Part shown: positions 58,972 through 64,000 of the stretch, in pieces | How the letters are laid out: each line of letters begins with the position of its first letter | How positions within the stretch are numbered: position 1 is the first letter of the stretch | From: Maribacter algicola | GTDB lineage: Bacteria; Bacteroidota; Bacteroidia; Flavobacteriales; Flavobacteriaceae | DNA length: 64,000 nucleotides | Direction of reading: 5' to 3' | NCBI RefSeq assembly: GCF_003933245.1 | Contig: NZ_QUSX01000002.1 | Location: forward strand, 434,001 to 498,000 | The notes under the pieces: generated by a model | The model's database searches: none | What the model was told of the DNA's origin: nothing | The model's input: the letters and a program-made list of their open reading frames with translations, nothing else | Made by a program: the position numbers and the translations under genes

Positions 58972-60063
58972 ATGAACAAACTGTATACCCTTATAGCCAC
59001 TGCCGCTTTCATTGTTACCTTACCCCAAGATATTTTTGCTCAGGAAATGAGTTTTGAGGAATACAACCCTACCTCGACCCTAGTAGTTCCCGGCAAGGAG
59101 ATAAATCGGGCAAAATTTCGATTTATAGACGTCCACAGCCATCAAAGGGACATGTCCGTCGAAAAATTGGGCAGCCTGTTAAAAGATATGGAATCCCTGA
59201 ACGAGGGAATTATGGTAAACCTGAGTGGTGGTTCCGGTGAAAGTCTCAAGGAGAAGGTCGATAATATCCAGAAAAGCTATCCCAATAGGTTCGTTGTCTT
59301 TGCCAATGTCGATTTTGAAGGAGCGGATGGTGCCGAATGGGGTCAAAGGGCCGCCGCACAATTAGAGGCGGATATCAAAAATGGGGCAAAGGGACTCAAG
59401 GTCTTTAAAAGTCTAGGACTTCGCAATACCGATGCATCCGGGAACAGATTGGCCATTGATGACCCCCGTTTGGACCCTATTTGGGCCAAATGTGCGGAAA
59501 TGGGCGTACCCGTTTTGATCCATGCAGCTGACCCTAAGTCTTTTTGGGACGATATGGATAGCGATAACGAGCGATGGCTGGAACTAAAAACGCATCCCAG
59601 AAGAAAAAGATCCAATACCGATCCGGCACCTTGGGAGCAAATCATTCAGGAACAACACAACGTTTTCAAAAGACATCCCAAAACAAAATTTATCAATGCC
59701 CACATGGGCTGGCATGCGAACAATTTGGAAAAACTGGGCAAATTGCTGGATGAGATGCCCAATATGAACGTGGGAATATCAGCGGTGATTGCAGAATTGG
59801 GTCGGCAACCACAGAATGCCAGGAAGTTCTTTATTAAATATCAGAATAGGATACTTTTTGGAAAGGACAGTTGGAACCCGGATGAATTCCCCACTTATTT
59901 TAGGGTGCTGGAAAGCAACGATGAATACTTTCCCTATTACAAGAAATACCATGCCTTTTGGGCCATGTACGGTTTAAACCTACCGGACGAGGTGCTTAAA
60001 AAAGTATATTATGAAAATGCCCTGAATTTGATTCCAGGGTTGGATAGATCTCTGTTTGAATAA
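58972..60063 (+). CDS. Secreted metal-dependent amidohydrolase
   Basis: The start is ATG 58972 (MNKLYTLIATAAFIVTLPQD), opening a Sec signal with cleavage near IFAQ; the earlier frame from 58834 lies in the preceding gene. The 363-aa product is a TIM-barrel amidohydrolase of the Amidohydro_2 type: FIDVHSHQRDMS (His-x-His), GLKVFKSLG (Lys region), VLIHAADP (His), INAHMGWHANN (His) and ILFGKDSW (Asp). Homologues include decarboxylases and lactonases. Placement after the XdhC-MobA pair could link it to the same catabolic route, but this is only inferred. Confidence 0.9.
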   Translation: MNKLYTLIATAAFIVTLPQDIFAQEMSFEEYNPTSTLVVPGKEINRAKFRFIDVHSHQRDMSVEKLGSLLKDMESLNEGIMVNLSGGSGESLKEKVDNIQKSYPNRFVVFANVDFEGADGAEWGQRAAAQLEADIKNGAKGLKVFKSLGLRNTDASGNRLAIDDPRLDPIWAKCAEMGVPVLIHAADPKSFWDDMDSDNERWLELKTHPRRKRSNTDPAPWEQIIQEQHNVFKRHPKTKFINAHMGWHANNLEKLGKLLDEMPNMNVGISAVIAELGRQPQNARKFFIKYQNRILFGKDSWNPDEFPTYFRVLESNDEYFPYYKKYHAFWAMYGLNLPDEVLKKVYYENALNLIPGLDRSLFE

Positions 60064-60067
60064 GGGT

Positions 60068-60205
60068 CTACAGGTCGGCTTCGATATCTTTTTGTGGAAG
60101 CTTTTCAACATCTTGAAAAACTCCACAGGAGATTTCCCTTTTTACCAAGGAGGCCGACTTCTTCCTTTTGGTCAGCGCCTCAATTTCTTTGTTCAAATAC
60201 TGCAT
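60068..60205 (-). CDS. Possible small charged protein, 45 aa
   Basis: The minus-strand frame from ATG 60205 to TAG 60068 begins MQYLNKEIEALTKRKK and ends QKDIEADL. It is highly charged, helical in character and has well-behaved codon use. The frame stays open about 20 codons upstream without a further ATG. It fills part of a 286-bp gap that otherwise lacks a gene. No homologue is recognised and it might be chance. Confidence 0.35.
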   Translation of the reverse strand: MQYLNKEIEALTKRKKSASLVKREISCGVFQDVEKLPQKDIEADL

Positions 60206-60349
60206 GATTGGATGTTTTTCAAAGGAAACGAATCCCTTTTTTATTTGTTGTATCCCAGCAAATTAAATCCAATCCAAAAAAGTTTTTTGCCCCGTTATGT
60301 GATTTTTTTGACACATTGCATACCTATAGGGAAATGAAGAAAAACTTGA

Positions 60350-60838
60350 ATGGGGAATAGCGATGCTTTTGCGGAGGTTATACGGGAACATCAGGGGTTA
60401 CTTTACAAAGTTTCCGCTATCTACACAAATAATGAACAGGATCGGGAGGATTTGTTTCAGGAAATCGTCTATCAGCTTTGGAAGTATTTTGACAGTTTTA
60501 GGAACGAATCCAAGATCAGTACTTGGATGTATCGGGTGGCGATGAACACGGCCATTACTCATTTGAAGAAATCAAAACGCATCCCAAAATCGGAACCCAT
60601 CAAGGAATCCCTGGTTAGTATGGCGGAGGGCACTGACGACCTTTTTCAGGAACGCGTGCGATTGTTACATCGGCAGATTGAAAAAATGAATTCCTTGGAA
60701 AAGGGTATCATGCTGCTCTTGTTGGAGGGAAAATCGTATCAGGAAATATCCGAGATTACCGGATTGAATACCTCTAATGTAGGAACAAGAATATCCCGCA
60801 TCAAGGAAAAACTTAGAAAAAACATGGTAAAATCATAA
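60350..60838 (+). CDS. ECF-type RNA polymerase sigma factor
   Basis: The 162-aa product starts at ATG 60350; a nearby ATG at 60334 leads directly to a stop. Region 2: LLYKVSAIYTNNEQDREDLF and QEIVYQLWKYFDSF, then STWMYRVAMNTAITHLKK (region 2.4 side). Region 4: EKGIMLLLLEGKSYQEISEI and TGLNTSNVGTRISRIKEKL, recognising the -35-like element. It has no long region 3. It is coupled (4-bp gap) to a membrane protein that may serve as its anti-sigma factor. The target regulon is not visible here. Confidence 0.93.
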   Translation: MGNSDAFAEVIREHQGLLYKVSAIYTNNEQDREDLFQEIVYQLWKYFDSFRNESKISTWMYRVAMNTAITHLKKSKRIPKSEPIKESLVSMAEGTDDLFQERVRLLHRQIEKMNSLEKGIMLLLLEGKSYQEISEITGLNTSNVGTRISRIKEKLRKNMVKS

Positions 60839-60842
60839 GCAG

Positions 60843-61445
60843 ATGGAATTGGAAGAATTACAGGCGAATTGGATGGCCATGAGCCAGGAATTGGAAAAGC
60901 AAAAAAAATTAACGAACGAAATCATCTTAAAAATGACACGGAACAACTATCGGAACAAATTCAGCAAACTCAACAATTACGAGAATGTAGGGGCCATTAT
61001 ATGCTATATATTGGCAGGGTTTATAATTTTTAATTTCTGGAAACTGGATACCTTGTACCTAAAGCTTTCTGGAGTATTTACACTAGCTTTTTTAACGATT
61101 TTGCCCACCTTGGTGTTGCGTGCATTGCATAGGATAAAAAACCTCGATATCCTTACTAAATCGTACAGGGAAAACCTCATAGCCTATACTAAGGAAAAAA
61201 AACGACTCCTAAAACTTCAGCAAATTGCCATTGCCGTGAGCTTTATTTCCCTACTGTTCTCGCCGGCCTTGGCCTTAAAGCTGCTCAGGGACAAGACACT
61301 GATCCTTTCGGAAATGAAACCTGAACAGATAATAGCCATAGTATTTGTTATCGTTCTTATGGTTTTTGTAAGCCGATGGGGCTATAGAAGTTATAAAAAG
61401 GTAACGAATTCTGCCGAAGCCCTGTTGGAGGATTTGGAAGCATGA
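60843..61445 (+). CDS. Membrane protein, probable partner of the ECF sigma factor
   Basis: The 200-aa product starts with a charged cytosolic helix (ELEELQANWMAMSQELEKQK), has two helices (VGAIICYILAGFIIFNFW, LSGVFTLAFLTILPTLVL), a coiled-coil-like middle (SYRENLIAYTKEKKRLLKLQ) and two more helices (IAVSFISLLFSPALAL, IIAIVFVIVLMVFVSRWG). It lacks the zinc-binding motif of classical anti-sigma domains. The 4-bp spacing from the sigma gene suggests a functional partner, perhaps an atypical anti-sigma factor. No family is recognised. Confidence 0.7.
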   Translation: MELEELQANWMAMSQELEKQKKLTNEIILKMTRNNYRNKFSKLNNYENVGAIICYILAGFIIFNFWKLDTLYLKLSGVFTLAFLTILPTLVLRALHRIKNLDILTKSYRENLIAYTKEKKRLLKLQQIAIAVSFISLLFSPALALKLLRDKTLILSEMKPEQIIAIVFVIVLMVFVSRWGYRSYKKVTNSAEALLEDLEA

Positions 61446-62081
61446 TTATTCCGTCAATTTCTTTTGGATATAATTGAGGATCAACATCCAGTTCATTTTT
61501 AATAGGAGGGAGGCGGTGGGCACGTTGTCATCGGCAATGGCAGAAATTATGGCCTCATGCTGATTGTCGGATTTATTGTAAAAGGAATCGTCAGAAGTAA
61601 AGGCTCGCTCGTAAAAGAATATTCGGGTTCGTAAATCTTGCAGGATTTTTAACGCCAGTTCGTTTTCGTACCCTTTGGTAAGCAGGTGATGAAATTCCAA
61701 ATCGGCCTGAATCCGGCTAATGGCATCTTGGGCATTTTCGAATACATCCTGTTGCTTTCTAAGCGCGTCGATATGATTCCTATTGAATTCCGAGTTTTCA
61801 ATGGCCATAACCTCTAAGCTGGCGACCAGTCCGTAGAGGTCCTCGGCTTCCTTAACATCAAGCTCCGCAATGATAAATCCCCTGTTAGGTACCGCTTTAA
61901 TGATATGGGACTGCTGTAGTTGGGTCAATGCCTCCCGTATTGGGGTCACACTAACTCCTAATTCCCTGGAAAGGGCGGCCAAGTTGATGGTCTTACCTAT
62001 TTGCAGCTTCCCTTGCTTCATTTGAAAAAGCAGGTAATCCCGTACCTGGTCCCTAAGATTTATTTTTTGAATCATTTTCAA
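61446..62081 (-). CDS. GntR family regulator with FCD domain
   Basis: The 211-aa product has an N-terminal winged helix (DQVRDYLLFQMKQGKLQIGK, then LAALSRELGVSVTPIREALT) and a C-terminal FCD helical domain with LEVMAIENSEFNR, DLEFHHLLTKGYENE and SDNQHEAIISAIADDNV; the His residues in HHLL and NQHE are typical metal ligands of FCD domains. FCD regulators sense carboxylic acids or amino acids. It converges with the sigma operon. Its target is unclear because the neighbours are unrelated; the upstream AT-rich 276 bp may contain its own operator. Confidence 0.9.
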   Translation of the reverse strand: MKMIQKINLRDQVRDYLLFQMKQGKLQIGKTINLAALSRELGVSVTPIREALTQLQQSHIIKAVPNRGFIIAELDVKEAEDLYGLVASLEVMAIENSEFNRNHIDALRKQQDVFENAQDAISRIQADLEFHHLLTKGYENELALKILQDLRTRIFFYERAFTSDDSFYNKSDNQHEAIISAIADDNVPTASLLLKMNWMLILNYIQKKLTE

Positions 62082-62357
62082 ATTTAATATATCGTATATG
62101 ATTTTAACTCGGTTTTTGGGTTTCTAGTATATAGTTTTAAGTCGGCTGCCCGAAATTATTCGTTGAAATGCACGGTTTGCGTGCTCTTAAACCATACTAT
62201 TTGTTGTGGTTGCACGTTTTTATGATTGTAATAAGTAACCCTTTAAACAAATCAAAAAAGTAAATAGCATGAAATGAACCATAACAAGTCTTAATACCTG
62301 TCTAGATGGTTTATGGTGAATTGCATCTAACCTTTTAAAAACAATTAAAATAAACAG

Positions 62358-63152
62358 ATGAAAATTTTGAAAAACACGTTGAAGAATTTAAGTCTTTTGG
62401 CCACTGTCCTGATATTAGGGTACAGTTGTAGCGATGATGCCGAAAAGGACAATAATGACATAGTACTTTCACAAGCCGACTTGGAGGCGGTGCTGGAAAC
62501 GGACGATATTGTAGGCGGTATCGATGTGGCCTTGTTTGAACTTTATAATAATAACGGTAGCACGGGGAAAACCCTGTTGAACGAGTGTTATAGTGCCCAG
62601 TATACGGATACGGGATATGTAGCTACATTTAACAATTGTGTCCTGAATGGCACCGAGAATATTAACGGCACTTTGACGGTAACCTATGACACCGATGGCG
62701 AGCAAGGTTCATTTTCCGCTAGCTATGTCGACTTTTACGTAGGCGAAATCAAAATCAATGGAACCAGATCATATCAGTTAAGTGCCAATTCTGAAGGAAA
62801 TAGTGTTTCATTTTCGGTAACTAGCAACCTTACGGTTGAAATGGCCGATGGCTCTTTAATTTCCGACGAAGGCGAAAGGTCTTTTACCCTTACCTTTGGT
62901 GATTCGCTTGAATCGACTACCTATAGCATTGCTGGAACCTGGACCGTTGTTTACGAAGGAAATACGTACAACGTTACGGTAAATGCTCCGTTGACAAGTA
63001 GTGTTAACTGTGGGTATGTAGCCGCCGGGGATATGACCGTTTCCAAAAATGGCCTTACCGTAAATGTAGATTTTGGCGATAGTACGTGTGATAACGTTGC
63101 CACCATAACCTACCCAAATGGGGTGGTAGAGGAGATTACTTTGCGTGACTAA
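62358..63152 (+). CDS. Secreted lipoprotein, beta-rich, unknown function
   Basis: The 264-aa product has a lipoprotein signal (TVLILGYSCSDDAEK). The mature part is beta-rich with repeated strand segments, for example TLTVTYDTDGEQGSFSASYV, VSFSVTSNLTVEMADGS and STTYSIAGTWTVVYEG, and has Cys in LLNECYSAQY, FNNCVLNGT, VNCGYVAAGD and STCDNVATI, which may form two disulfides. No family is recognised; it resembles other orphan surface lipoproteins of Flavobacteriaceae. A strong terminator follows 30 bp after the stop. Confidence 0.65.
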   Translation: MKILKNTLKNLSLLATVLILGYSCSDDAEKDNNDIVLSQADLEAVLETDDIVGGIDVALFELYNNNGSTGKTLLNECYSAQYTDTGYVATFNNCVLNGTENINGTLTVTYDTDGEQGSFSASYVDFYVGEIKINGTRSYQLSANSEGNSVSFSVTSNLTVEMADGSLISDEGERSFTLTFGDSLESTTYSIAGTWTVVYEGNTYNVTVNAPLTSSVNCGYVAAGDMTVSKNGLTVNVDFGDSTCDNVATITYPNGVVEEITLRD

Positions 63153-63181
63153 AAGATTTGCCCTTACAATGGCAAACTAAA

Positions 63182-63218
63182 AAAAAAGGATAAGATTGAT
63201 GAGGTCTTATCCTTTTTT
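63182..63218. terminator. Strong bidirectional terminator
   Basis: AAAAAAGGATAAGA pairs perfectly with TCTTATCCTTTTTT (14 bp) around a 9-base loop. It lies 30 bp after the lipoprotein stop and 15 bp after the last minus-strand unit of the MRTFIRQS array, so both converging transcripts can end here. Confidence 0.92.
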
Positions 63219-63232
63219 ATTTTCTGTATACT

Positions 63233-63331
63233 CTAAACCAAAGCTATGACTTCCTTGGCAGCTACCCAACGGACTTTACCTTTGGTAAGCCTTTTCGCTT
63301 CGGTTATTGATTGTCTGATAAAAGTTCTCAT
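63233..63331 (-). CDS. MRTFIRQS-family microprotein, terminal divergent copy (A)
   Basis: This is the last unit of the array in transcription order. The 32-aa product begins MRTFIRQSITEAKRLTKG and ends AAKEVIALV. Against the other copies the first 14 residues are almost the same, with three synonymous codon changes (ACC/ACG, GCG/GCC, AGG/AGA) and two substitutions. The C-terminal part differs but keeps a K-V-R-W...E-V echo of the K-R-V-Q-W-A-E-V segment in the others. It is basic and has no signal. Function is unknown. Confidence 0.6.
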   Translation of the reverse strand: MRTFIRQSITEAKRLTKGKVRWVAAKEVIALV

Positions 63332-63398
63332 GTTGTTCGTTTTTGTCCCGAAATGAATCGGGAGCTGATTGATGATTAATTGATTGATGAATTCCGGA

Positions 63399-63512
63399 TT
63401 AATGGGTATGGTTTCTAACCTCGGCCCATTGCACGCGTTTACTGTTTCTAAAATTGCTGAAGAATGAATGTCTTCTGGCTTCCGTTGGTGATTGTCTGAT
63501 AAAAGTTCTCAT
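63399..63512 (-). CDS. MRTFIRQS-family microprotein, copy B (37 aa)
   Basis: The 37-aa product begins MRTFIRQSPTEARRHSFF and ends AEVRNHTH. It is rich in Arg and aromatic residues. It differs from copy C by four synonymous codon changes (CCA/CCT, GCC/GCT, TCA/TCC, TTC/TTT) and two His/Tyr changes, which is the pattern expected from selection on the peptide rather than on the DNA. The start is preceded by the hairpin at 63530-63547 and an A-rich stretch. It is in a minus-strand array, 67 bp before copy A. Confidence 0.65.
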   Translation of the reverse strand: MRTFIRQSPTEARRHSFFSNFRNSKRVQWAEVRNHTH

Positions 63513-63582
63513 GCTGTTCGTTTTTTATGTCCCGAAATGAATCGGGAGCTGATTGATGATTAATTGATTGATGAATTCCGGA

Positions 63583-63696
63583 TTAATAGGTATGGTTTCT
63601 AACCTCGGCCCATTGCACGCGTTTACTGTTTCTAAAATTGCTAAAGAAGGAATATCTTCTAGCTTCCGTAGGTGATTGTCTGATAAAAGTTCTCAT
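63583..63696 (-). CDS. MRTFIRQS-family microprotein, copy C (37 aa)
   Basis: This is the Tyr version: MRTFIRQSPTEARRYSFF at the start and AEVRNHTY at the end. The core SNFRNSKRVQW is identical to copy B. The spacer to copy B is 70 bp and contains ATCAATCAATTAATCATCAA and the hairpin. Size, direction and spacing match the other copies. No family is recognised. Confidence 0.65.
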   Translation of the reverse strand: MRTFIRQSPTEARRYSFFSNFRNSKRVQWAEVRNHTY

Positions 63697-63768
63697 GTTG
63701 TTCGTTTTTTTTATGTCCCGAAATGAATCGGGAGCTGATTGATGATTAATTGATTGATGAATTCCGGA

Positions 63769-63882
63769 TTAATGGGTATGGTTTCTAACCTCGGCCCATT
63801 GCACGCGTTTACTGTTTCTAAAATTGCTGAAGAATGAATGTCTTCTGGCTTCCGTTGGTGATTGTCTGATAAAAGTTCTCAT
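63769..63882 (-). CDS. MRTFIRQS-family microprotein, copy D (37 aa)
   Basis: This copy encodes the same peptide as copy B (His versions at both variable sites) with the same codons, which shows a recent duplication of the B-C pair. Its leader is like the others, with the hairpin upstream of the ATG at 63882. Confidence 0.65.
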   Translation of the reverse strand: MRTFIRQSPTEARRHSFFSNFRNSKRVQWAEVRNHTH

Positions 63883-63952
63883 GCTGTTCGTTTTTTATGT
63901 CCCGAAATGAATCGGGAGCTGATTGATGATTAATTGATTGATGAATTCCGGA

Positions 63953-64000
63953 TTAATAGGTATGGTTTCTAACCTCGGCCCACTGCACCCGTTTACTGTT
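63953..64000 (-). CDS. MRTFIRQS-family microprotein, copy E (partial)
   Basis: Only the last 15 codons and the stop are in the window. They read NSKRVQWAEVRNHTY, the Tyr version as in copy C. Two codons differ from it synonymously (CGG for CGC, CAG for CAA), giving further support for coding. The array continues beyond the right edge. Confidence 0.6.
   Translation of the reverse strand, partial: NSKRVQWAEVRNHTY

Follow-up and report, generated by a model that had tools for sequence, protein, structure and literature searches.

What does the tandem repeat at the right end of the window (the whole 64,000-nucleotide stretch of Maribacter DNA that was analysed) encode, and why is it repeated? 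The repeat is an array of five microprotein genes on the minus strand, four of which lie completely inside the window. Minus-strand units of about 181-186 bp had been described in the initial annotation, and their spacing was indeed 181, 184, 186 and 184 bp; Tandem Repeats Finder returned a period of 184 (4.4 copies, 93% match) and one of 370 (2.1 copies, 96%). When the array was extended past the right edge, it was found to have five units. Read in the direction of the genes, E, D, C and B come first, with 37 aa each, and the divergent A, with 32 aa, is last. The array does not continue beyond unit E: the start motif, with up to three mismatches allowed, has five occurrences genome-wide (control, 0). 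The peptides are referred to as family A, and the features of the locus are as follows.

63953-64066 (G000:C2:497953-498066), minus strand: unit E, first ORF, 37-aa microprotein; C-terminal codons (63953..64000) in the window, start at 64066, past the window
63900..63917, minus strand: hairpin TCCCGA-TTCATT-TCGGGA before unit D, a genus-level feature
63769..63882, minus strand: unit D, 37-aa microprotein ORF, family A
63716..63733, minus strand: hairpin of the same sequence (TCCCGA-TTCATT-TCGGGA) before unit C
63583..63696, minus strand: unit C, 37-aa microprotein ORF, family A
63530..63547, minus strand: hairpin TCCCGA-TTCATT-TCGGGA preceding unit B
63399..63512, minus strand: unit B, 37-aa microprotein ORF, family A
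63346..63363, minus strand: hairpin TCCCGA-TTCATT-TCGGGA preceding unit A
63233..63331, minus strand: unit A, divergent last ORF, 32 aa, ending KGKVRWVAAKEVIALV
63179..63221, no strand assigned: probable terminator, an inverted repeat with A and T tracts (arms at L003 1180-1196 and 1206-1222, 94% complementary)

Units B and D are identical across 40 nt of leader plus the ORF, which fits the earlier proposal that a two-unit block was duplicated (B-C as D-E); the alternation of His and Tyr forms on which that proposal had drawn is strict only at the last residue. Last copies of the unit A type were also found in two other loci (L005 and L040), and related last copies of 39-42 aa in four (L041, L042, L048 and L053). 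The inverted repeat at 63179..63221 is probably a terminator common to the array and the convergent plus-strand gene at 62358-63152. Further inside the window lies a gene for an ECF sigma factor (60350-60838), followed by that of a 200-aa protein without Pfam match, the pair spanning 60350-61445. The same genome carries a second array (L108:7911-8493; G000:C2:55910-56492), which is composed of two KAS-type copies, a microprotein of family B (see below) and a divergent last copy.

Coding evidence for the repeated ORFs

An excess of synonymous changes between the copies had been noted from the window alone, and it was borne out: in the four 37-aa copies, pS was 0.219 and pN 0.019, the differences being distributed 7/3/28 over the three codon positions. 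The dN/dS ratio was 0.073 for these copies (6 pairs), 0.127 within arrays of the genus (94 non-identical pairs, identical pairs having been left out), 0.154 between arrays of the genus and 0.171 between loci of other genera (2000 sampled pairs each). The two other forward frames contained stops in 84/84 genus copies, and the three reverse frames in 84/84, 52/84 and 73/84; the spacers between the ORFs vary from 15 to 136 nt and show no frame preference. An iterated profile, run on the 80 longer loci, returned 210 family A rows, 170 of which are exactly 37 aa long, the remainder being contig-edge fragments, divergent last copies and at least one overlapping row. These rows form 80 clusters (arrays), 59 of them with two or more rows; in 21 of the 80 arrays of the scanned loci only one copy was recognised, partly at contig edges.

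Frameshifts or random substitutions in the ORFs of relatives would have spoken against coding. The low dN/dS and the constant length mostly spoke for it, although one listed family A match (G439) contains an internal TGA. As judged by these comparisons, the family A peptides are under protein-level selection, and the comparative evidence for a translated peptide is strong; the low dN/dS and the constant length agree with the initial view that the units are basic microprotein genes and not noncoding repeats. In arrays with at least three copies, 28 of the 59 copies other than the last were closest to a copy from their own array, and 14/21 last copies were nearest to another last copy. The repeats turn over, and the last copy tends to stay distinct.

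Leader hairpins and start contexts

Each ORF had been reported to follow its own conserved hairpin, and these leader hairpins had been taken as a defining signal. The hairpin does precede four of the ORFs here, but unit E, the first ORF, is preceded by a different one (CCGAT-GCAT-ATCGG), and the hairpin is not conserved in the wider family. With a simple perfect-stem finder, hairpins were counted before 19/60 internal ORFs in the genus (shuffle mean 2.3, maximum 8) and before 5/55 in other genera (shuffle mean 1.8, maximum 5). The hairpin was rejected as a family-wide element; leader hairpins are a genus trait only. The A-rich start context before each ORF is conserved more widely. In 184 unique leaders, A was present at positions -13/-12/-11/-10 in 90/94/93/83% and at -3 in 82%, compared with 41/50/58/46% and 43% for the starts of 482 long ORFs, which were chosen mechanically, so that the control percentages may be lowered. 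According to the available part of a study on F. johnsoniae, A at -3 helps initiation (PMC6847099).

These data bear on the possibility that the transcript works as an RNA and that the ORFs are incidental. The hairpins of the genus, in excess of shuffles, would suit such a role, and in the available part of a report on F. psychrophilum, a transcript with an ECF-type motif before it, Rfp11, is given as a putative regulatory RNA (PMC9723704, Table 2C). However, hairpins elsewhere stay within the range of shuffles, there is no Rfam match at gathering score in window positions 60000-64000, and dN/dS values of 0.07-0.17 together with tuned start contexts point to the peptide as the product, which makes an RNA function very improbable.

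Family A among relatives and in databases

A DNA search of 149 related genomes gave matches in 37, namely in the Maribacter genome itself, in 33/35 same-genus relatives and in three genomes of other genera. In the two same-genus genomes without a match, the assembly is incomplete (85% and 68%). A number of matches end at contig ends, as repeats often do, and some are weak (E 1e-5 in G006; E 1e-4 in G028, which has two clear copies by profile). Confirmed loci numbered 99 in named genomes, 80 of which were kept. When a profile of 39 sequences was run against the family, 56/397 genomes and 35/237 genera were matched, with two or more matches in 45 of the 56 genomes. In order-wide samples (296 genomes each), family A and family C (see below) were found in five genomes each, all of them labelled as the own genome or as belonging to the family of the window. 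Genera with family A include Maribacter, Eudoraea, Robiginitalea, Saonia, Muriicola, Pricia, Ulvibacterium, Cerina and Poritiphilus; the first three all belong to the Flavobacteriaceae, and by this comparison the peptide is spread across the family. One family A peptide (P0102) is assigned to the kelp Laminaria digitata in the database; its source is probably an attached flavobacterium in the kelp assembly.

The array had been considered a feature that could not be named, and this judgement still stands. None of 50 family A members matched Pfam, PHROGs or PADLOC, NCBIfam gave one marginal match among the 50 (GapS4b, E 0.0049), and a search of the PDB with family A returned nothing at E≤1. Against ~5.8 billion proteins, a single peptide of the window had no match, and the profile matched 107 clusters, none of them functionally named. 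A literature search by titles and abstracts found no description of these peptides or of the promoter dealt with below. Nine stretches of viral contigs fit the pattern, none of which encodes a relative; together with the PADLOC result (0/50), this leaves the anti-phage role suggested earlier without support. The sole Rfam match in window positions 60000-64000 was CsrC (15.3 bits versus a gathering score of 61, E 0.16), a chance match.

A shared promoter and its candidate sigma factor

Past the window edge, and thus outside the view of the initial annotation, the first ORF is preceded by an ECF-type promoter, GTACTGTAACAAA-N13-CGTCT followed by T(A/G)TAA, with a -35-like box whose start lies 116 bp upstream of the first ATG, near position 64182 on the minus strand. 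The TGTAAC..CGTC site was found in 65/75 arrays (62 exact and 3 with one mismatch; 30/32 in the genus and 35/43 elsewhere), 5 further loci having been skipped at contig edges. The 10 arrays without a site include the second array of the own genome (C2:55910-56492); in L066, a run of N hides the array start. In every one of the 62 exact array sites, the gap is 16 bp and TGTAAC is preceded by GTAC. The genes next to the arrays differ between genera; they lie on the opposite strand upstream in 56/74 cases, downstream in 49/76 and on both sides in 35/70. A separate transcription unit is therefore likely for many arrays, though not proven for all, and with only 35/70 flanked by opposite-strand genes on both sides, independence from the neighbours is not general. 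The comparative evidence for one shared ECF-type promoter is strong.

In the own genome, the longer promoter pattern has two perfect matches, one being that of the array and the other lying 74 bp before a gene for an ECF sigma factor (G000:C2:375414-375923, outside the window; Sigma70_r2 and Sigma70_r4_2 by Pfam). Downstream of it are encoded a 149-aa protein with no Pfam match and then a DUF4252 protein; from where it is encoded and from a stretch that looks hydrophobic by eye, the 149-aa protein is a putative anti-sigma factor. The promoter boxes are present before the ECF gene in 57/58 loci, that is, in 29/30 from Maribacter (the miss is at a locus edge) and in 28/28 from other genera (these rank as the most similar among 132 matches). 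An orthologue was found in 132/149 family genomes (E≤1e-35): it is present in 69/69 of those with family A or strong family C, compared with 63/80 of the others (Fisher P 1e-5), and, among 125 fuller assemblies, in 65/65 compared with 52/60 (P 0.002), both values being uncorrected for phylogeny. Since the same boxes precede the arrays and the ECF gene, this sigma factor probably drives both the arrays and itself.

Alternatively, the operon could be as described but be read by a different ECF factor whose boxes overlap, in which case the DUF4252-linked ECF operon would be just one more target. The GTAC extension, carried by every exact array site, is absent in all 57 ECF-gene sites examined, so that another ECF factor could read the arrays, though reading by the DUF4252-linked factor stays likely. 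F. psychrophilum has seven ECF factors, for which overlapping regulons were suggested by the authors in the available part of their report (PMC9723704), and the ECF gene inside the window (60350-60838) adjoins the array in 28 genus loci and is near 3 arrays elsewhere. No TGTAAC, however, occurs within the 300 bp upstream of it. Furthermore, both kinds of site share the boxes, the gap and, as judged by eye, a TGTAA-like element equally far downstream, and the DUF4252-linked factor is encoded in all 69 array genomes. Considering both sides, a different reader is unlikely; judging from the sites and their distribution, the array promoter is quite likely read by the DUF4252-linked ECF sigma factor.

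With one mismatch allowed, the own genome contains 9 promoter sites (control, 1). One is located 72 bp before the gene of an ABC ATPase (L349) and one 61 bp before that of a DUF4870 protein; among the eight further own-genome sites examined, L350 and L351 lie within ORFs and L149 and L348 far from any ATG, and these may be chance. In G080, an exact site precedes a similar ABC ATPase (L215), and in G239, a site with a 17-bp gap precedes a MacB-like permease (L212). The ABC exporter genes with such sites hint at an envelope-stress regulon.

Properties and proposed role of the peptide

The family A consensus is MKxxxxxTPTESRRFxxFSxFKxSKRVRWAExRNYxx. Met and Trp are invariant across the 62 rows of alignment A2, which omits 7/69 divergent A peptides; Trp is missing in 3/170 of the 37-aa rows. 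Over 170 peptides, the mean charge is +6.3, the pI 11.5 and the mean GRAVY -1.21. Two short helices (9-19 and 25-35) are predicted by a weak structural model (pLDDT 65, pTM 0.26), and no signal-like stretch was seen by eye.

Could such peptides be leaderless antimicrobial or signalling peptides that are exported and act outside the cell? Tandem genes for short, cationic, Trp-containing peptides do recall leaderless multi-peptide bacteriocins, the ABC exporter genes mentioned above carry the promoter (with one mismatch, exactly, or with a 17-bp gap), and in 31 genus loci the array has a gene for an EamA-family permease nearby. That gene, however, is close to just 3 arrays in other genera, the presence of the array is genus-wide and not strain-specific, and the peptides are very hydrophilic and devoid of a recognisable signal-like stretch by eye; we consider export quite improbable. 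As to a RiPP precursor array, which would have a modification enzyme nearby, the neighbouring genes were seen to vary from genus to genus. Tandem, near-identical ORFs of ~35 aa also resemble type I toxin genes (Ldr/Ibs-like tandem copies), which would be accompanied by antisense RNA antitoxins. Ldr/Ibs toxins are hydrophobic membrane peptides that occur as tandem copies, whereas those of family A are hydrophilic and basic, and this identity can hardly be credited. Ldr/Ibs toxins, the PSM-alpha operon and leaderless multi-peptide bacteriocins likewise have related genes for short peptides arranged one after another, the products of which are hydrophobic or amphipathic membrane agents. From Ldr/Ibs, family A is set apart by its GRAVY and charge, and from the membrane-active PSM-alpha and bacteriocin peptides by its hydrophilicity. 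Sra and RMF belong to the small basic proteins of the stress response whose targets are ribosomes or nucleic acid. Family A would resemble them in being short, basic and stress-linked but is without a match in PDB or Pfam; to our knowledge, proteins of the Sra/RMF type are not encoded by tandem multi-copy genes.

Returning to the operon under its own ECF factor, the array on balance seems to be an ECF-sigma stress operon that yields a basic, possibly nucleic-acid-binding microprotein in high dose. From sequence, we infer the following course. Some stress would free the ECF sigma factor from its anti-sigma factor, and the freed factor would amplify its own operon and transcribe the array from one promoter. 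Each ORF would be translated from its own A-rich start context, the divergent last ORF giving a variant. As each ORF has its own start context, copy number would multiply the dose; the turnover of the repeats beside a distinct last copy, taken with these start contexts, suggests that the genes are reiterated for dosage. The 37-aa, strongly basic microprotein would be made in large amount, would most likely stay in the cytosol and would act stoichiometrically by binding an anionic partner. The nucleic-acid-binding role offered in the initial annotation may hold in that it fits the charge of the peptide; RNA, DNA or a ribonucleoprotein as the partner is our guess from charge and hydrophilicity, to which we give somewhat less than an even chance.

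The regulatory half of this operon follows a familiar scheme, in which an ECF sigma factor and its targets have the same promoter, and two described cases are leads to the inducing signal, not tests. In P. gingivalis, the ECF/hypothetical/DUF4252 operons PG_0214-0216 and PG_0985-0987 are upregulated together in strain FLL361; their likeness to the genes at C2:375414 is one of gene order (ECF sigma, small protein, DUF4252), and the available part of the report mentions no microprotein array (PMC10101095). In F. psychrophilum, low nutrients induce the ECF-type motif SM6, which has a CGT -10 box and is assigned to an ECF/anti-sigma pair, to an ABC ATPase and to T9SS genes, as stated in the available part of the report (PMC9723704). 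An ECF gene and an ABC ATPase are among the genes with the site here, too, whereas SM6 also covers T9SS genes, and no tandem peptides are mentioned in that part (PMC9723704). The Rfp11 transcript of F. psychrophilum, mentioned above, may be an mRNA for such peptides.

Other peptides behind the same promoter

A scan of 149 family genomes for the promoter only gave 32 sites in 28 genomes (control, 1); of 30 loci examined, 12 led to family A, 11 to family C and 7 to other genes. Peptides of family C (MRTLxxNQLT..SKxYxWNxKRRYR) have 28-29 aa (one has 35), are mostly encoded in tandem and were found behind the same promoter in other genera. The family C profile matched 63/149 genomes at E≤0.01 and 52/149 at E≤1e-6; among the 20 loci with the best scores, 15 carry tandem copies, and none lacks the promoter site (18 exact). 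Family A is present in 17 and strong family C in 52 of the 149 genomes, and none has both (hypergeometric P 4e-4); common ancestry by itself could produce this pattern. A profile comparison did not support homology between the two families (hhalign probability 1.3%, E 0.039).

A broader reading, which we offer as a speculation that may well fail, is that an ECF stress sigma factor found in nearly all flavobacteria would have as a main output a tandem-amplified, uncharacterised microprotein (A in Maribacter, Robiginitalea, Eudoraea and others, C in other genera) and not an enzyme or chaperone, this microprotein being a stoichiometric binder of RNA, DNA or ribosomes, with copy number as the dosage device. 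The output half of the operon has so far been nameless: reiterated genes for a protein of fewer than 40 residues, in many genera, behind one promoter. Such genes are too short for many gene callers, and the database entries that exist are without functional name; a short tandem array can thus hide a conserved gene family. If the proposal is true, it adds to the Flavobacteriaceae a stress response not yet characterised, the regulator, promoter and product of which can be tested.

Some smaller observations concern the same arrays. Weak DNA matches of the family A array land on family C arrays in G052:C5 and G075:C1, where they cover the A-rich leader and the MRT start. The first ATG ORF after the family C arrays (L300-L319) has 22-45 aa by mechanical listing and ends with W.G.KR(Y/F)AH in L300, L310 and L319; these three are possibly a variant of the family C peptide. 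The strict promoter also precedes genes for proteins of 187-188 aa in two genera (L192 and L200), which have a signal-like start and no Pfam match. Family B (GFGWNTDRLYD), the third peptide, was aligned from 13 loci and has 4 database matches, all without functional name.
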